Shown one piece after another: positions 1,464 through 56,542 of a DNA stretch of 64,000 nt (within the stretch, counting starts at the first letter, position 1; every line of letters starts with the position of its first letter). The notes beneath the pieces were generated by a model that ran no database searches, was not told the DNA's origin, and saw nothing but the letters and a program-made list of their open reading frames with translations. Made by a program: the position numbers and the translations under genes. This stretch comes from Desulfurobacterium atlanticum. GTDB taxonomy: Bacteria; Aquificota; Aquificia; Desulfurobacteriales; Desulfurobacteriaceae. The stretch is taken from NCBI RefSeq assembly GCF_900188395.1, contig NZ_FZOB01000004.1:1-64000 (forward strand). Reading direction: 5' to 3'.

Positions 1464-2858
1464 CTATTTTTCTATAATAATCCTGTTTCCTTTCATTTCT
1501 AAAACGTTCTCAGCAAAGGGAAAAACATAATCTGTTTTAATCAAACAATTCCTTAACTGCTGTCCATCACCGGCAATAAAATAGGCACTATTTAAACTCT
1601 TCCCTTTAATTGTTAGAACTTCTCCTGATTTAAACTCTCTAAACAATGGCAAACTTAAAAGGAAAATAGAAAGAGCAACAAATATAAACTCTTTTTTAAT
1701 TGCAAAAACCACCAGTATAAAGACTGTAAAAGTAATTAGAAAAATCCACCCTGAAGGAGGAGCAGAATAAACAACTCCAGCAGAAAACGGAACAAATAGC
1801 TTCTTCACCCCAAGAATAAAAAGCTCACCCAGCTTAAAGGTCAGGCTGTTTATCAATTCAATTTTAAAAAAAGTTATCTCTGAAAGAAAAGAGAAAAGTA
1901 AAAAAGCTGAGAAGAGCAAAGACAGAAGAAAAATAGAAACAGGAGCAAAAAGATTAATCACTTTAAACTTATAGACAACATACGGAGCTGTAAAAAGAAA
2001 CGGAAATGTCCCGGCAAAAATTCTTCCTTTAATTCCTTTATCCATTCCGATAGCTATCCCGGCGACAGCAAGAAAAGAGAGAATAAATCCAGTGGAAATT
2101 TCAGAAAAAGATAAAAGAAAAGCTGTTAAAAGCAAAACATACAGATAATCAACTTTTCTACCGTAAAGTTTTAGAAAACCGACAAAAACGATAAAAAAAT
2201 AAGCCCTTAAAACAGAGACAGGTAAACCTGTAAACGGAAGTAGAACGGTTAAAACCGCAGCAGAAAGAGTAAACCTTTTCTCTTTTGATAACGGAAAAAA
2301 AAGAAGCATAAGCAGTCCAAACACAATTCCAGTATGAAGTCCTGATACAGCTATAAAAGGATATGTACCTGTTAAAAGCATATAGGTTTTTAAACCCTCT
2401 GGTAGATTATACCTTACCCCAAGGGTAACCGCCTCTATTAGAGAGGAAACCGGATATTCAAACTCTTCCTCTATCTTTTTTGCAATCTCAAATCTTTCTC
2501 TTTCAAAGAAAGAAAAGATACCACCTGAAGAGATTTTTTCTCCAGAAGGAGATATCACGTCACCCACAAAGATCCCATCATCAACCTGAACATACCTGCC
2601 GTTTGAAAGAAGAGCAATCCTATTATCAGAATCAAATATCCACTTAACTTTGAAAGAGTCTTTATGCCACTTTAAACCACTAAAGAGAAAAACAGCTACA
2701 GCAACGCAAACAGCAGAAAAAAAGAGATCCCTAAAGGAGAATCTAACTGTGTAAACAAACACAGAGAAAACCAGAAATGGGAGAAGAAATAACGTTTTTA
2801 ACTTTAAAAAAGCAGAAAGAAACAAAAGCGTTAAGACAAAAAGACTATGCCTTTCCAT
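1464..2858 (-). CDS. comEC: ComEC/Rec2-type DNA-uptake channel protein, competence domain only
   Basis: This is a predicted inner-membrane channel for single-stranded DNA import. It has many hydrophobic segments, and the competence-domain signature AVSGLHTGIVFGL lies near residue 175 after a soluble stretch of about residues 70-140. The protein is 464 residues and stops soon after the membrane domain. The metallo-beta-lactamase-like domain that ends longer ComEC proteins (700-800 residues) is not seen, and only about 45 residues of non-membrane sequence remain. Short ComEC forms are known in several lineages. The start overlaps the methyltransferase-like gene by 14 bases, suggesting translational coupling. 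Confidence 0.8.
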   Translation of the reverse strand: MERHSLFVLTLLFLSAFLKLKTLFLLPFLVFSVFVYTVRFSFRDLFFSAVCVAVAVFLFSGLKWHKDSFKVKWIFDSDNRIALLSNGRYVQVDDGIFVGDVISPSGEKISSGGIFSFFERERFEIAKKIEEEFEYPVSSLIEAVTLGVRYNLPEGLKTYMLLTGTYPFIAVSGLHTGIVFGLLMLLFFPLSKEKRFTLSAAVLTVLLPFTGLPVSVLRAYFFIVFVGFLKLYGRKVDYLYVLLLTAFLLSFSEISTGFILSFLAVAGIAIGMDKGIKGRIFAGTFPFLFTAPYVVYKFKVINLFAPVSIFLLSLLFSAFLLFSFLSEITFFKIELINSLTFKLGELFILGVKKLFVPFSAGVVYSAPPSGWIFLITFTVFILVVFAIKKEFIFVALSIFLLSLPLFREFKSGEVLTIKGKSLNSAYFIAGDGQQLRNCLIKTDYVFPFAENVLEMKGNRIIIEK

Positions 2859-10860: not shown

Positions 10861-11200
10861 AAATAGTATCAAGAGCATCTTCTAAAAGCTGAACCACCTC
10901 TTCCACAGGCTTACCGTCAAGAATAGCAAGCTGAAGCTTTTTAAAAAGCATTCCCTCTTCCTGAAGTCCCATATTCCATAAAATACCCTTTACTGTATGA
11001 GCTGCATCAGCTGCCTTTTGAAGCTCTCCGCCGTTAAGCAGTTTAATAAGTTCTTCTATATTTTCTTTCAAATTATCAACACCTGTATTTGCTATCATAC
11101 AAGCTGTTTCATCATCAAAATCCATCCCTTTCAAGTAGGAAACGGTAGCATCTTTTAAACGTTTTTCATCAATTCTGCTTAAATCATACTCTATCTCCAT
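10850..11200 (-). CDS. Histidine phosphotransfer (HPt) domain protein
   Basis: This is a single-domain phosphorelay protein of 116 residues. AAHTVKGILWNMG near residue 65 is the HPt signature, with the phospho-accepting histidine followed two residues later by K-G. It is convergent with, and overlaps by 11 bases, the response-regulator/HD-GYP gene, which suggests they work together. No histidine kinase is adjacent. It overlaps the end of pncA by 17 bases, and GGAGGAGGTG precedes the ATG, so it belongs to the fabD-pncA-HPt leftward unit. Confidence 0.85.
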   Translation of the reverse strand: MEIEYDLSRIDEKRLKDATVSYLKGMDFDDETACMIANTGVDNLKENIEELIKLLNGGELQKAADAAHTVKGILWNMGLQEEGMLFKKLQLAILDGKPVEEVVQLLEDALDTISKE

Positions 11201-11780
11201 AAAACACCTCCTCCCTTACAATTCCCACGGCACCCTTTGAAAACATTTCCTTTAAAGCTCTGTCTCCATCACCAGGTTTAACCTCTACTGCTTTTACACC
11301 ATCAAGTAAAACAAAAACAGTAAATCCTAAATTCAAGCCTCCGATCACTGTATTTTTAACGCAGTAATCGGTAGCGAGTCCGCCCACAAAGATTCTTTTA
11401 ATCCCTCTTTCCTTTAATAAACTTTCAAGGAGAGTAGCTTGAAATCCAGAATAAGCCTCAAGTTCCGGTCTATCTCCCTTATTTATAATAAAAGTATCTG
11501 GTGGAAGTTTCAACCCATCATGAAATTTCGCTCCCTCACTATTTTGAAGGCAGTGAACAGGCCATAAACCTCCGTTAATGGTAAAAGAGATATGCTCTTC
11601 AGGATGCCAGTCTCTTGTTGCAAAAATTGGAAGACCGGCTGTTTTAAAAAGGTCAATATACCTATTCAGCGGTTCAACAACCTTATCTCCATCAGGAACG
11701 GCCAGAGCACCGCCAGGACAGAAATCTTTCTGAACATCAACAACAATAAGAGCGTCAAACGGAGTAAGCATCACTTTCAT
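11184..11780 (-). CDS. pncA: Nicotinamidase
   Basis: This enzyme hydrolyses nicotinamide to nicotinate for NAD salvage. The 198 residues belong to the isochorismatase-like fold, with the catalytic triad D15 (VVDVQKDF), K101 (INKGDRPE) and C140 (GGLATDYCVKNT). The metal ligands are D57, H59 and H63 (RDWHPEEH). The cis-peptide GLATD and the VDVQKDFCPGGAL start are typical of PncA rather than other isochorismatases. It starts directly after fabD. De novo NAD synthesis is represented by nadA at 21462. Confidence 0.92.
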   Translation of the reverse strand: MKVMLTPFDALIVVDVQKDFCPGGALAVPDGDKVVEPLNRYIDLFKTAGLPIFATRDWHPEEHISFTINGGLWPVHCLQNSEGAKFHDGLKLPPDTFIINKGDRPELEAYSGFQATLLESLLKERGIKRIFVGGLATDYCVKNTVIGGLNLGFTVFVLLDGVKAVEVKPGDGDRALKEMFSKGAVGIVREEVFYGDRV

Positions 11781-11781
11781 A

Positions 11782-12714
11782 TCAGATTTTCCCCTCTAAA
11801 ACCTTTTCTATATCTTTAGGTTTTTCAATATTTATAACCTTAATATTTCTCGTAATTCTTCTCATTAAGCCTTTTAAAACGTTTTTCGGCCCTATCTCAT
11901 AACAAACAGTTATACCTTCTCTTTCCATATAATTTATATCCTCAACCCATCTAACAGGCGAAAACATCTGTCTGTAAAAAGAATCTTTCAACTCATCAAC
12001 ATCAACAATCTCCTTTACATCTGCATTGTTAAGAAGGGGAATTTTTAAGGTATTAAACTTTATCTTCTCCATCTCCTCTCGCAGTTTATCAGCAGCAGGT
12101 TTCATAAGAGTAGAATGAAAAGGAGCGGAAACTGCAAGACGAACGATTCTTTTAGCCCCAGCTTTTTCAAAAAGAGATTCAGCCTCTTCAAGAGCTTTAA
12201 TTTCTCCGGAAATTACTGTTTGCTCAGGACTGTTGTAATTTGCTACCTGAACAAAACCACTTTTAATCTCTTTTAAAACCTTTTCTATCCTATCAGCAGG
12301 GAGACCTATAACAGCGGTCATTCCTCCCACTCCTTCTGGAACAGCTTCCTGCATAAACTCTCCCCTTTTTCTAACAAGGTAAGCTCCATCTCCCACGGAA
12401 AAACCGTAAGCAGCGCAGCAGGCAGAAAATTCACCTAAAGAGTGGCCAGCAACAAGACGGGGATTTACATCAAAACCGTTCTTTCTTAGGATGTTCAAAA
12501 CAGCCATACTTAAAGTGAGAATCGCAGGCTGTGCGTTGTAAGTTAGTGTTAACTCTTTATCTGAAGACTCAAAACATAGTTTTGCAATATCTATTCCTGC
12601 TCTATCAGACGCTTCCTCAAATACTTCTCTTGCTTCTTTGAAAGTTTCATACAGTTCTTTTCCCATTCCTGCATACTGAGAACCCTGGCCGGGAAATATA
12701 AAAGCAACTGACAT
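11782..12714 (-). CDS. fabD: Malonyl-CoA:ACP transacylase
   Basis: This enzyme transfers malonyl groups from CoA to acyl carrier protein to feed fatty-acid elongation. The 310 residues start with FIFPGQGSQYAGMG. The nucleophile S92 lies in AGHSLGEFSA, NYNSPEQTVISG is conserved, and the catalytic histidine lies in APFHSTLM near residue 200. The ATG follows GGAGG by six bases. It is the first gene of a leftward unit with pncA and the HPt gene. Other fab genes are not adjacent. Confidence 0.96.
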   Translation of the reverse strand: MSVAFIFPGQGSQYAGMGKELYETFKEAREVFEEASDRAGIDIAKLCFESSDKELTLTYNAQPAILTLSMAVLNILRKNGFDVNPRLVAGHSLGEFSACCAAYGFSVGDGAYLVRKRGEFMQEAVPEGVGGMTAVIGLPADRIEKVLKEIKSGFVQVANYNSPEQTVISGEIKALEEAESLFEKAGAKRIVRLAVSAPFHSTLMKPAADKLREEMEKIKFNTLKIPLLNNADVKEIVDVDELKDSFYRQMFSPVRWVEDINYMEREGITVCYEIGPKNVLKGLMRRITRNIKVINIEKPKDIEKVLEGKI

Positions 12715-53557: not shown

Positions 53558-53725
53558 CCTTCCTCCTGCAGTTTTGCACAAAAATTTGCATCTATGCAAC
53601 GCTCTTACCAAAGAGTAAAAAAATTTTATACAACATTTACAAAGCCATAAACCAGAACACTCCCAGTTTTAACTCTAAAAATATTAAGATTATTTGATTA
53701 CAAAACAGCTTCAGAGCAGCAAAAA

Positions 53726-53755
53726 GTCATCCTTAGGGCTTCGCCTGAAGAATCC
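53726..53755 (+). repeat. Hairpin repeat, copy 1
   Basis: This copy begins GTCATCCTTAGG and ends CTGAAGAATCC, with a short TTC loop. It is the most degenerate full copy of the family, which has the form GTCATTCTGAGG-arm-loop-arm-CCGAAGAATC. Confidence 0.6.
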
Positions 53756-53915
53756 TTTAAAGTTTATAGTAGTTTCTCTGAACAGTTTAAACATCTATCA
53801 GCAACATCTGGCATAATCTTTGCTTTAATTTGAAAAGCAGAGATGCAACGTTAAATTTTTAATAAGGTTATCTGAACATGTTTGAAAATTTTTACTTGTC
53901 TTTAAAAGATATTGA

Positions 53916-53948
53916 GATTCTTCGGCTGCAAAGTAGCCTCAGAATGAC
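53916..53948 (-). repeat. Hairpin repeat, copy 2 (inverted)
   Basis: Read on the minus strand it has ATTCT-GA-GGCTAC, a TTT loop and GCAGCC-GA-AGAAT, flanked by GTC. The two GA pairs form the internal loop shared by all good copies. Confidence 0.7.
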
Positions 53949-53955
53949 GATGAAA

Positions 53956-53984
53956 GTCATCCTGAGGGCAAAGCCCGAAGGATC
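53956..53984 (+). repeat. Hairpin repeat, copy 3
   Basis: ATCCT-GA-GGGC, loop AAA, GCCC-GA-AGGAT (53959-53983) is a perfect stem apart from the paired GA internal loop. Both arms changed together relative to copy 2, so pairing is kept. Confidence 0.75.
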
Positions 53985-54072
53985 TCTTAAAGTTAATAGC
54001 ATTTTTCAAACAGCCTCTAAGGTTATCTTTACAAACTTTAGAGGAACTGTTAATATTGTTAAGAGTAGTTTC

Positions 54073-54102
54073 TTGACACTGCATAATGGAAAATGCTAAA
54101 TT
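54073..54102 (+). promoter_or_regulatory. Promoter for the porin gene
   Basis: A perfect TTGACA (54073-54078) is followed after 18 bases by TAAATT (54097-54102). Transcription would start near 54110, about 50 bases before the start codon. Confidence 0.6.
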
Positions 54103-54160
54103 TACTGAAGATAAAACTTGCACACTTTAAAACTTAAAGAACAAAGGGAGGTTTTTGAAG

Positions 54161-55186
54161 ATGAGAAAAGCATTAGTTGCAGTAACAGTAATGGGACTTG
54201 TTGCAGGGTTTGCAGCAACAGCAAGCGCTACAGAAGTAAATGTAGGTGGAAAAATTACAGTAACAGGAACAAAGGTGGAATCTGATGCTGCAAGTTATTA
54301 TGACACAACAACTGAAGTGAAAGTTGGTGTAGATGCGAAGATATCTGAAAATCTAACAGCAAAAGTGACTATTAAAGCTGACGATGATAGTGATAATGGT
54401 GGAAGCACTAACAAATGGGTAGAAATCGATGAAGGATACTTTAAACTTTCAAATATGTTTAATACTCCATTATGCGGTAAGTTTGGTTACTTTGGAGTGA
54501 ATGTTGGTGACAGCAAAATAGTTGATGAAAGCCTTGATGCTGCTATGTTAGGAGTAAAAACGGACTATGGTGTGGCTTATGCGGTTGTTGGAGAAGCAAG
54601 AGCAGATATTACAACTTACGTTGTTGGTGGATTTAAAGGAGACTTAAAACCTTTTGGCATCGGTGGTGCTTTCGAAATTGCAGATCTTTATCAGGATACT
54701 ATGGATAAAAATGTATTTTATGGAAAAGTTGCTCCTGAGTTTGAAGTAGATTTTGGAAAGGTTGGCGTTTCAGTTGAAGGTGCAGTTGACGATAACGGAA
54801 ACTTCTTCGGTGTAGGAGCTTCTCTTGATAATGAAATGTTCGGGGCAAAGATAGCTTACGATGTTTATAGTGATGGATTCGTATCTCCGCTCGAAGATTA
54901 TGATTATGCAGAAGTTCTTGATAACAGTAATTTTGTAAACCCAGCAATCATTACAGTTGAAGCAAGTGTTAAACCTACAGATAAGGTTAAATTAAGTGCC
55001 GCTTACGTAAACTTTGATGGAGACACTCCAAGTCCAGTTCAAAATAACAAATATGAAAGTGAAAGTGAAATAGACCTTAAAGCTTCTTACAAATACACAG
55101 ACAACCTTAAACTTTCTGCTGGTCTTTACCTTCCAAGTGCAGGAGTTGATTACCAGGCAGAAGTTAAAGTTGCACTCTCATTCTAA
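54161..55186 (+). CDS. Outer-membrane porin-like beta-barrel protein
   Basis: About 341 residues. A clear signal peptide ends ATASA, and a long series of amphipathic strands ends in phenylalanine (VKVALSF), as expected for an outer-membrane barrel. It is acidic, with short turns rich in Asp and Gly, like general porins of deep-branching bacteria. The ATG at 54161 is preferred over TTG 54155 because GGGAGG then has a nine-base spacing. It has its own promoter, a strong terminator and well-formed SD, so it is probably highly expressed. The transported solute cannot be told from sequence. Confidence 0.8.
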   Translation: MRKALVAVTVMGLVAGFAATASATEVNVGGKITVTGTKVESDAASYYDTTTEVKVGVDAKISENLTAKVTIKADDDSDNGGSTNKWVEIDEGYFKLSNMFNTPLCGKFGYFGVNVGDSKIVDESLDAAMLGVKTDYGVAYAVVGEARADITTYVVGGFKGDLKPFGIGGAFEIADLYQDTMDKNVFYGKVAPEFEVDFGKVGVSVEGAVDDNGNFFGVGASLDNEMFGAKIAYDVYSDGFVSPLEDYDYAEVLDNSNFVNPAIITVEASVKPTDKVKLSAAYVNFDGDTPSPVQNNKYESESEIDLKASYKYTDNLKLSAGLYLPSAGVDYQAEVKVALSF

Positions 55187-55210
55187 CTTAAACATTAAAG
55201 AAACCTAAAA

Positions 55211-55237
55211 AGGGAGGCTTTAAGCCTCCCTTTTTTT
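55211..55237 (+). terminator. Strong intrinsic terminator after the porin gene
   Basis: AGGGAGGC pairs with GCCTCCCT around TTTAA, followed by a run of seven T (55231-55237). This is a textbook rho-independent terminator. Confidence 0.93.
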
Positions 55238-55245
55238 ATGCTAAA

Positions 55246-55273
55246 ATTCTTCGGGTTCCGCCCTCAGAATGAC
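55246..55273 (-). repeat. Hairpin repeat, copy 4 (inverted)
   Basis: On the minus strand it reads GTC ATTCT-GA-GGG, loop, CCC-GA-AGAAT. It lies nine bases after the porin terminator T-run. Confidence 0.7.
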
Positions 55274-55330
55274 ACCAGTTATTACTATAATGCTGTTTTT
55301 ACATGGCTGTGTTAGATTGATTCGTTGCAT

Positions 55331-55413
55331 AAAGCCAATTTACTTCCTTCGTCATTACTGAGGCTTTTATTTTTTTTCGTCATTCTGAGGCTGTGAAACA
55401 GCCGAAGAATCCA
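55331..55413 (+). repeat. Left direct repeat flanking the Wzz-like gene, with hairpin copy 5
   Basis: It starts with AAAGCCAATTTACTT (55331-55345), then a half-site at 55350-55368, and then the full hairpin repeat at 55379-55412 (ATTCT-GA-GGCTGT, GAA, ACAGCC-GA-AGAAT). The same three parts in the same order occur at 56426-56542. The final 35 bases are identical in the two copies. Confidence 0.75.
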
Positions 55414-55433
55414 GATATCATATGAGGTGTTGT

Positions 55434-56297
55434 ATGAAGAAAAAAGAGATAGAAAACTATCCAGTTTACATAGAAGATGATGAAATAGATCTTTACGAGC
55501 TTTTTCTGACACTAAAAAGAAAAAGAAAAGTTGTTATTTTACTTACACTCTTTTTTACTTTCATCGCTGCCACCTATGCTTTTTTTGCAACTCCAGTATA
55601 TCTATCAAGCTCAATTGCCCTATTTCCAGAAAGCAACAATAAACAGCTTGTTTCAGCAGAAACTACAGCAAAACTTGTAAACGTTATTACAGAACATATA
55701 AAAGAGAGAAATTATAAAAAGATTTCACAACTTACAGGACTTACTGTTGACACAATAGAAACTCTAAAAGATATAACTGTTGAAAACCCAAGAAGAAGAG
55801 GTAAGGATAACACATTTGAGCTGAAAATTTACGGAACAAACAGAGAAAAACTGCTTAAAGCTTCTTACAAAATCGTGGACTATCTAAACAGCAACTCTTA
55901 TATCAGGAAAATCATAGAAGATGAAAAGTCTTTAAAGAAGGAAGAAATCAAAGAACTCCAGAATAAGCTTCCACAGCTTACAAAACTTGCAACCGAGATT
56001 GAAACAAAAATAAAAGCATCAAAAAAAATTAATATTCTATTTAACCCCCTTGATCTTCAAACTAAAATCCTGGGAATCAAAAACAGAATAAATAGTTTAA
56101 AGTTTACACTGGAGAACAAAATCCACGGCTACAAAATAATATCATCATACGTAACAGATAAACCTGTTAAACCGAAAAAAACACTTATAGTAGTTGTCGG
56201 TTTTGTTACAGGTCTTTTTACAGGTATATTTGCTGCATTCTTTAAGGAATGGCTTGAAAGTGTAAAAAACACACGACGCCGTGAAGAATCAGAATAA
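55434..56297 (+). CDS. Wzz-like polysaccharide chain-length determinant
   Basis: The 287 residues have an N-terminal cytoplasmic stretch with a LYELFLTLKRKRK segment and a membrane helix (about 36-58, AATYAFFATPVYLSSS after it). A periplasmic helical domain (about 60-245) precedes a second helix near the C-terminus (VVVGFVTGLFTGIFAAFF). The proline-rich KPVKPKKTLIV before the second helix is typical of Wzz/PCP proteins that set O-antigen or capsule chain length. No tyrosine-kinase domain is present. The ATG at 55434 is preferred over ATG 55422 because GAGGTG precedes it. It stands alone between two direct repeats, away from other polysaccharide genes. Confidence 0.82.
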   Translation: MKKKEIENYPVYIEDDEIDLYELFLTLKRKRKVVILLTLFFTFIAATYAFFATPVYLSSSIALFPESNNKQLVSAETTAKLVNVITEHIKERNYKKISQLTGLTVDTIETLKDITVENPRRRGKDNTFELKIYGTNREKLLKASYKIVDYLNSNSYIRKIIEDEKSLKKEEIKELQNKLPQLTKLATEIETKIKASKKINILFNPLDLQTKILGIKNRINSLKFTLENKIHGYKIISSYVTDKPVKPKKTLIVVVGFVTGLFTGIFAAFFKEWLESVKNTRRREESE

Positions 56298-56340
56298 GCT
56301 CATAGAGGTATTTAAAAGACAGACAACTATAAAGCTTTGA

Positions 56341-56369
56341 GATTCTTCGGACTTTGCCCTTAGAATGAC
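56341..56369 (-). repeat. Hairpin repeat, copy 6 (inverted)
   Basis: On the minus strand GTCATTCTAAGGGC, loop, then a degenerate return arm CCGAAGAATC. It is one of the weaker copies. Confidence 0.55.
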
Positions 56370-56425
56370 TTTTTTAATATTGTTTTATACCTTTGCTGGT
56401 TTTCTACATTGTTCATTGTTTTAAT

Positions 56426-56542
56426 AAAGCCAATTTACTTATTTTTCCGTCATTCCGAATCTTTTGTTATTTCTTTCTATCATCCTGAAGCTTTTATTCC
56501 TTTTTCCGTCATTCTGAGGCTGTGAAACAGCCGAAGAATCCA
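56426..56542 (+). repeat. Right direct repeat flanking the Wzz-like gene, with hairpin copy 7
   Basis: It shares AAAGCCAATTTACTT (56426-56440) and the terminal hairpin (56508-56541) with the left copy. It holds one extra half-site unit: two half-sites at about 56448-56464 and 56479-56493 instead of one. It may therefore grow by unit duplication. Confidence 0.7.

Follow-up and report, generated by a model that had tools for sequence, protein, structure and literature searches.

The hairpin repeats around two envelope genes of Desulfurobacterium atlanticum are a GA-loop variant of the CGTC-tagged REP superfamily, and we propose, with a probability of roughly 0.7, that they are the cognate single-stranded DNA hairpin sites of Ssn-like GIY-YIG nucleases, spread secondarily by a MITE. 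The window that we analysed is a 64-kb stretch, positions 1-64,000 of the forward strand of contig NZ_FZOB01000004.1.

Hairpin copies in the window and their fold

All seven hairpin copies of the preliminary description were present and folded as it had claimed, with one small correction, as the copy placed at 55246 spans 55245-55273 on the minus strand. The hairpins and the genes between them are:

53726..53754, plus strand: 29-nt CGTC-type REP hairpin, degenerate, TA/GA loop (38 bits)
53916..53948, minus strand: 33-nt REP, TTC class, GA/GA loop; left half of the head-to-head dimer in the MITE
53956..53984, plus strand: 29-nt REP, TCC class, GA/GA loop; right half of the dimer, spacing 7 nt
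54155..55186, plus strand: envelope protein ORF with an apparent signal peptide, porin-like by inspection
55207..55235, plus strand: perfect 14-bp inverted repeat followed by a T-run, intrinsic-terminator-like, of the preceding gene
55245..55273, minus strand: 29-nt REP, TTC class, GA/GA loop
55379..55411, plus strand: 33-nt REP, TTC class, stem GGCTGT/ACAGCC
55422..56297, plus strand: Wzz chain-length-determinant family gene (PF02706)
56341..56369, minus strand: 29-nt REP, TTC class, AA/GA loop
56508..56540, plus strand: 33-nt REP, same sequence as 55379-55411

The porin-like ORF had no Pfam match. A structure scan that did not require GA recovered six of the hairpins, compared with 0-2 (mean 0.45) in dinucleotide-shuffled windows, and missed the degenerate copy at 53726-53754, which has one C-A mismatch in addition to its TA/GA loop. 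Window scans detected no copy outside the seven, as had been stated before; the claimed clustering around two envelope genes, however, holds inside the window but not genome-wide, where there are 70-90 copies, most of them at other loci. The whole-genome scan suggested earlier gave 93 matches to the hairpin model, and a stricter pattern gave 74. Most of the genome's copies lie in a polysaccharide locus (contig 1:133-166 kb) or are scattered within MITE copies, and those outside the MITE mostly form mosaic clusters at polysaccharide loci.

Each repeat carries GTC as its 5' tag, followed by an outer arm of five pairs, which a GA/GA internal loop separates from an inner hairpin that varies. In the window classes the split stem has 5 bp outside GA/GA and 4 or 6 bp inside it, closed by a loop of 3 nt. 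The matched stem changes reported earlier proved genuine, and the compensatory changes were significant in a covariation test: double changes were found at 4/9 pairs of the 29-nt class, whose covariation score exceeded all 500 shuffles, and at 4/11 pairs of the 33-nt class, while pairs 4-28 and 5-27, the complementary A-T pairs at the first two stem positions, were invariant. The view that fold rather than sequence is selected is too strong, because GTCATYCTGAG and CGAAGRATC are near-invariant as sequence; what stands of it is compensated drift, limited to the inner stem and a single outer pair. In the GA-blind scan of the window and two mosaic clusters, GA was retained on the 5' side in 37/38 copies and on the 3' side in 37/38. 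Constancy of this loop extends to the CT and TC classes of other genomes (59/66 and 18/20 of the repeats adjoining GIY-YIG genes, respectively) but not to the CC class, which has a continuous stem instead in 17/24 such repeats, or to the GC class, which has a GA/GAx loop in 15/24; GA/GA therefore marks some classes and not the whole family.

A cis-acting RNA structure under selection at envelope genes, either a terminator or a stabiliser of mRNA 3' ends, would fit the several copies that lie 3' of gene ends and the good folding of both strands, of which the GTC strand is slightly more stable, more clearly so as RNA. We nevertheless regard this role as very improbable, since the repeats occur in both orientations, and within the MITE whatever the neighbouring genes. 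Moreover, the porin-like gene already has the hairpin at 55207-55235, an ordinary terminator-like structure separate from the REPs, and no Rfam family matched here at gathering score.

Family membership and the MITE carrier

Similar hairpins occur in many unrelated bacteria and match a published superfamily, which bears out the earlier impression of a widespread REP-like element. In the passages of the survey used here, CGTC-tagged REPs, which include Neisseria dRS3 and Rickettsia RPE-4/RPE-6, have an unpaired 5' CGTC (or TGTC/CCTC) tag, complementary A-T at the first two stem positions, an 8-9 bp stem, a 4-5 nt loop and a CCA-like unpaired 3' tail; they are mostly head-to-head dimers, often heterodimers, without associated transposase genes (Di Nocera, De Gregorio and Rocco, 2013; PMC3733652). 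Our hairpins share with them the unpaired 5' (C/T)GTC tag, the A-T then T-A first pairs, a length of 25-40 nt, head-to-head heterodimers (a 33-mer/29-mer pair), mosaic clusters in some genomes and the absence of a RAYT nearby, and dimers inside a longer palindrome have a precedent in H. neapolitanus (PMC3733652). GTC itself is invariant, preceded by C in three, T in one and A in three of the window copies and by C or T in almost every repeat adjoining a GIY-YIG gene, and the 3' tail is CCA at 55379 and 56508, with other bases in the MITE copies. The hairpins differ from the published ones in a stem split into 5 bp, GA/GA and 3-6 bp where the published stem runs unbroken for 8-9 bp and has a 4-5 nt loop, in a host phylum absent from the list given there, in their capture by a TIR/TSD-bearing MITE and in the GIY-YIG nuclease gene that accompanies the repeats and does not figure in the passages of PMC3733652. 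Since unusually structured repeats escaped the survey, according to its authors, we class the hairpins as a superfamily variant that is none of the four listed families (PMC3733652). Literature matches to the strings GTCATTCTGAG, GCGAAGAATC and GTCATTGCGAG were unrelated titles only.

Movement by a Y1 (HUH) tyrosine transposase, the RAYT-type partner raised in the preliminary description, would suit the REP-like anatomy with its 5' unpaired tag and head-to-head dimers, and two Y1 proteins are present in the D. atlanticum genome. Both, however, are identical IS200/IS605 TnpA proteins that adjoin TnpB and score 21.8 bits against a RAYT cut-off of 80. A same-genus genome (G001) holds 44 repeat copies and no Y1 protein, which refutes a REP/RAYT system for the genus, and no CGTC-REP was present closer than 300 bp to any of 30 Y1 genes from REP-bearing genomes, so that we find such a system hardly credible. 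The likeness to REP/RAYT systems of gamma-proteobacteria (REPtron, REPIN) lies in a 5'-tagged hairpin, inverted pairs and a nuclease gene bracketed by repeats, and the difference in the tag, GTC where theirs is GTAG, and in the enzyme, a GIY-YIG nuclease where theirs is a Y1 HUH transposase.

Part of the window copies belong to a MITE, which is represented as follows:

53655..53785, plus strand: decayed 145-bp MITE, MITE positions 11-141 (local alignment score 102, shuffled maximum 45)
53863..53873, plus strand: left target-site duplication TAAGGTTATCT, recurring at 54018-54028
53874..54017, plus strand: intact 144-bp MITE with terminal inverted repeats TGTTTGAAAA ... TTTTCAAACAGCCTC, 91% identity to the genomic consensus
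54018..54028, plus strand: right target-site duplication TAAGGTTATCT, pairing with the left duplication
56305..56375, minus strand: probable decayed MITE right half, reversed (alignment score 64, shuffled maximum 45)

REPs 53916 and 53956 are the two halves of the single intact MITE, 53726 sits within the decayed one and 56341 probably within the decayed half; the MITE probably brought at least two, and probably four, of the seven copies. The copies at 55379 and 56508 have 51 nt in common at 90%, and the condition of duplication from one block, named earlier as refuting, applies to some of the seven, namely this pair and the MITE members. About 19 MITEs are present in the genome, 18 at 91-100% identity to the consensus and one degenerate, and the core at these ~19 sites is a head-to-head REP pair, a minus-strand 33-mer and a plus-strand 29-mer 7 nt apart. 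The target duplications are of 10 bp, seven of them perfect, and of 11 bp at the window copy. An IS5-family IS at contig 13:12362-13341 (NF033579, 164.9 bits; 10-11 bp TSD) ends in GAAAGTGTTTGAAAAAT / GAGGGTGTTTGAAAATT, the same TIRs as those of the MITE, and its transposase probably moves the MITE in trans. A target duplication of 10-11 bp is longer than expected for IS5, and the IS5 name is therefore taken from the transposase model only. This IS and the MITE copies were the only qualifying TIR-bearing elements; other TIR-like sites, on contigs 4 and 6, were rejected as an IS source, as no inverted partner or transposase was seen. In its 145-bp length, TIRs from an autonomous IS, 10-bp duplications and near-identical copies the element resembles IS-derived MITEs, from which it differs in holding a head-to-head REP pair as its core. 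The transposase link concerns the carrier, not the repeat itself.

The dimer offers another explanation for GA/GA, its maintenance by pairing between the two members in a four-way junction and not in the monomer hairpin, and the best fold of the 69-nt MITE dimer is such a junction, with the GA bases Watson-Crick paired. We disfavour this explanation and judge it quite unlikely, because the change of the third outer pair from T:A to C:G keeps each monomer paired yet disrupts the junction that the TTC and TCC members of one dimer would form, and because GA/GA is also retained in unpaired copies.

A GIY-YIG nuclease gene beside the repeats

The genome encodes a GIY-YIG protein of ~100 aa (PF01541, E 1e-20; contig 1:138821-139096), whose gene is flanked on both sides by REPs in D. 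atlanticum, in G001 and in another genome, G175; none of the seven window copies is near it. Such a gene is encoded by 39/50 REP-bearing genomes, the other 11 being without a match, some perhaps because of incomplete assemblies. Among 62 GIY-YIG genes from REP-bearing genomes of many phyla, a sample chosen through the repeats, 47 had a CGTC-REP within 300 bp, 32 of them on both sides, and 15 had none inside that distance. Repeat density was 6.9/kb within 150 bp of the genes versus 0.24-0.32/kb at 1-6 kb, with about 0.25/kb at 2-6 kb, and other GIY-YIG subfamilies, serving as a negative control, had 0 CGTC-REPs within 150 bp. A REP was present in 74/114 spacers adjoining the GIY-YIG gene versus 45/241 others (p 2e-17; p 1e-14 after removal of the four loci that the repeat scan had supplied). 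Moreover, the stem class was the same upstream and downstream of the gene in 28/31 cases (11 when shuffled), though it was predicted only weakly by nuclease protein relatedness (p 0.02-0.04), and the tags of the flanking repeats most often pointed outward. By this positional association the GIY-YIG nuclease is the candidate for the binding protein that had been named as an alternative to a RAYT.

These data were weighed against the view that CGTC-REPs are partnerless, being inert or weakly useful hairpins that are spread by transposons and recombination and at which the GIY-YIG gene lands. No dedicated transposase was identified in the 2013 survey (PMC3733652), the MITE with its IS5-family transposase is enough for the dispersed copies here, and the nuclease gene is absent from G173 (completeness 99) with 268 pattern matches and G177 (completeness 82) with 223, as well as from G003 (completeness 85) with 14; the enzyme is thus dispensable for keeping repeats and may not spread them. 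The class agreement on the two sides argues for specific pairing, however, as does the distribution of the gene across the phylum, where it was found in 3/136 genomes, all among the six repeat-rich ones, and we consider partnerless repeats unlikely.

The same class agreement and genome restriction would be expected if a homing gene inserted at the site that it recognises, and the link between repeat and nuclease could reflect the target-site preference of the gene instead of recognition by its product.

Our comparison of the protein is with the Ssn enzymes, which, reportedly from work by Chenal et al. of about 2025, are GIY-YIG nucleases of Neisseria that cut single strands site-specifically and are accompanied by NTS repeats. 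As in Ssn, a ~100-aa protein with one GIY-YIG domain has its presumed active-site residues intact (Y8, Y19, R29, E66 and N85, kept in 96-100% of 64 proteins) and many homologues, and the presumed targets are repeated GTCAT-type palindromes; repeats of matching stem class lie at the gene borders, where the protein would recognise them. The stem class here differs, being CT with a GA/GA loop. A search of solved structures with the GIY-YIG protein gave no match, and a literature search found no open paper linking GIY-YIG to CGTC-type repeats.

Proposed role of the repeats

In the mechanism that we favour, the one-domain nuclease would recognise and nick the hairpin when the GTC strand is single-stranded, a state that lagging-strand synthesis or the uptake of DNA may bring about. 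The proposed substrate is single-stranded GTCATTCTGAG-hairpin-CGAAGAATC. A nuclease gene bracketed by its own repeats would amount to a homing-like cassette, and hairpin cutting followed by repair or recombination could seed and reshuffle repeats at hot spots of gene exchange such as the polysaccharide loci. A head-to-head pair has in addition been taken up by the 145-bp MITE, which the IS5-family transposase probably moves in trans, the MITE being a second, ordinary route by which hairpins reach new sites.

The contrast between 47/62 GIY-YIG and 0/30 Y1 genes in the same genomes provides a concrete candidate enzyme for CGTC-REPs, which the 2013 description left without one of their own. A single purified protein and some oligonucleotides would suffice to test it, and the work on Ssn nucleases may already cover part of the association. 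Somewhat short of an even chance, in our estimate, is the broader idea that CGTC-REPs overall provide a bacterial homing-like GIY-YIG superfamily with its cognate sites and its borders. Hairpins of its own class would bracket each nuclease gene, and stem class (CT, TC, GC, CC) would change along with nuclease specificity. If this is true, the long-orphaned CGTC-REPs would gain their enzyme across phyla.

Hairpins in the window and across the genome

All seven hairpins of the preliminary description, which lie around a porin-like gene and a Wzz gene, were found in their places, one shifted by a base (55245-55273). A structure scan of the 64 kb that required GTCAT, an arm of five pairs, two unspecified bases and an inner stem, but not GA, recovered six of them (shuffled windows, mean 0.45), the degenerate hairpin at 53726-53754 being the one outside. 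The proposed matched stem changes were borne out by double compensatory changes at four pairs in each size class, 29 and 33 nt, with covariation exceeding every shuffle in both classes, and GA was kept on each side in 37 of 38 elements from the window and two clusters in a scan blind to GA. The suggested clustering around two envelope genes held inside the window but not genome-wide, as 93 model matches occur in the 1.74-Mb genome; congeners gave 44 matches in one and 20 and 2 in the remaining two.

The genomic copies form two populations, one dispersed and one clustered. The dispersed one consists of head-to-head pairs of a 33-mer and a 29-mer with 7 nt between them, found at about 19 genomic places. 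Each pair is the core of a 145-bp MITE that carries terminal inverted repeats (GAGRSTGTTTGAAAA) and has target duplications of 10 bp; the majority of the MITE copies match the consensus at 91-100% identity. Copies in the window are:

53874-54017, MITE copy upstream of the porin-like gene
53655-53785, decayed MITE copy
56305-56375, probable half of a MITE

The MITE transposase probably comes from an IS5-family element at contig 13:12362-13341, whose ends are the same as those of the MITE and whose target duplication, AGATTTCAGG(G), is similar.

The clustered population consists of mosaics of dozens of hairpin copies and half-copies, lying both in and next to genes for polysaccharide synthesis (contig 1:133-166 kb); comparable mosaics occur in the congener G001. 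Throughout the clusters, for example at L018:3019-3510, hairpins of the GTCATYCT class alternate with those of a further class of arms, GTCACTCTGAGG...CCGAAGAGTC, which run in the opposite orientation. At window 55351-55390 and 56449-56517, and at another locus (L035:5417-5494), the 5' half alone (CGTCATYCTGAG and some 10 nt more) is repeated in tandem ahead of full hairpins, as if the arrays were growing by half units. Interleaved with the mosaics of loci L018 and L019 (contig 1:130-169 kb) are several pairs of an MNT/HEPN-type nucleotidyltransferase and a partner gene, type VII toxin-antitoxin-like and present in G001 too, for example:

L018:4614-5328, MNT/HEPN-type pair
L019:8056-8813, MNT/HEPN-type pair
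L019:9267-9960, MNT/HEPN-type pair
L019:10245-10942, MNT/HEPN-type pair

Relation to CGTC-tagged REPs and a GIY-YIG gene

CGTC-tagged REPs, as described in PMC3733652, have an unpaired GTC tag, A-T first pairs and head-to-head heterodimers; the D. atlanticum hairpins share this anatomy and differ from the REPs described there in a stem split by GA/GA. That the element is widespread was confirmed by a pattern scan of GTDB genomes, with matches across many phyla, those listed including Acidobacteria, Bacteroidetes, Chloroflexi, Firmicutes, Omnitrophota, Nitrospirae, Planctomycetes and others.

One small GIY-YIG gene, encoding a one-domain nuclease of about 100 aa, stands in the clusters of D. 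atlanticum and another in those of G001, where the association was spotted before being tested in other genomes. Among the matches listed, the gene is present in 4 of 119 loci of the GTDB repeat scan, all four with CGTC-REPs nearby (nearest per side 16 to about 260 bp), and homologues occur in 39 of 50 whole-searched genomes from that scan, which is not a population frequency because these genomes were picked for carrying the repeat. With GA not required for detection (352 matches versus 4 in reversed sequences), CGTC-REP density near 62 such genes was 6.9/kb within 150 bp versus 0.24-0.32/kb at 1-6 kb; a CGTC-REP lay within 300 bp of 47 of the 62, with repeats on either side in 32, and GIY-YIG genes of other subfamilies had none within 150 bp (0/14). 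A REP was held by 65% of spacers adjoining the gene versus 19% of others (p 2e-17; 1e-14 minus the four loci supplied by the repeat scan itself), p-values that are optimistic because some loci share a genome and the counts are not all independent. Where REPs lie on both sides of the gene, their tags face outward in 21 of 33 cases and the stem class is the same on both sides in 28 of 31, versus 11 expected; protein similarity is weakly linked to stem class (p 0.02-0.04, shared ancestry of genomes ignored).

A RAYT-type transposase found no support as partner: Y1 proteins of the genome are limited to two identical copies of IS200/IS605 TnpA, none was found in G001, and in the same test genomes 0 of 30 Y1 genes had a CGTC-REP within 300 bp (distances being approximate at the few loci clipped at contig ends). 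All three controls, by distance, spacers and Y1 genes, were drawn from within the repeat-bearing test genomes. Each tnpA lies beside a tnpB (locus L017:3540-5322 and 11018-12539), the second tnpB reading frame stopping sooner (379 versus 466 aa).

The GA loop and a possible cognate nuclease

Among repeats beside the GIY-YIG gene, the loop is usually GA/GA in the CT class (59 of 66) and the TC class (18 of 20) and GA/GAx in the GC class (15 of 24), while CC-class (dRS3-like) copies mostly have a continuous stem (17 of 24); since the loop differs by stem class, the GA loop is a class signature. Its contexts in the D. atlanticum hairpins, TGAG and CGAA, are both of the 5'-PyGAPu-3' type, which can form sheared tandem G-A pairs in DNA, and the loop is plausibly among the features by which the nuclease would recognise one strand.

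Hairpins and the GIY-YIG gene are associated and conserved, and together most likely constitute a cognate pair of the Ssn type. In Neisseria, repeated NTS palindromes are reportedly the sites at which Ssn enzymes cut single-stranded DNA, and the enzymes are also reported to modulate natural transformation. Gene association supplies a candidate for the binding protein sought earlier, the GIY-YIG nuclease, which would bind and cut the hairpins and may mediate their spread. The genome encodes a ComEC-type competence protein (window 1695-2426, minus strand; PF03772, E 2.6e-17), so DNA uptake is possible, and this homology suggests possible natural transformation in D. atlanticum.

Within the window's phylum, three of 136 genomes carry the gene, all within the six having more than ten repeats, absences being affected by MAG incompleteness. 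G173, from one genus of this phylum (completeness 99), has 268 repeat matches and lacks the gene; therefore repeats can persist without it. Two further genomes of that genus, G175 and G177, have 181 and 223 matches. In all three the counts cover both strands and the repeats often form 25-mer/30-mer pairs, and among them only G175 has the GIY-YIG gene. These three genomes lend themselves to comparing how the enzyme was gained or lost.
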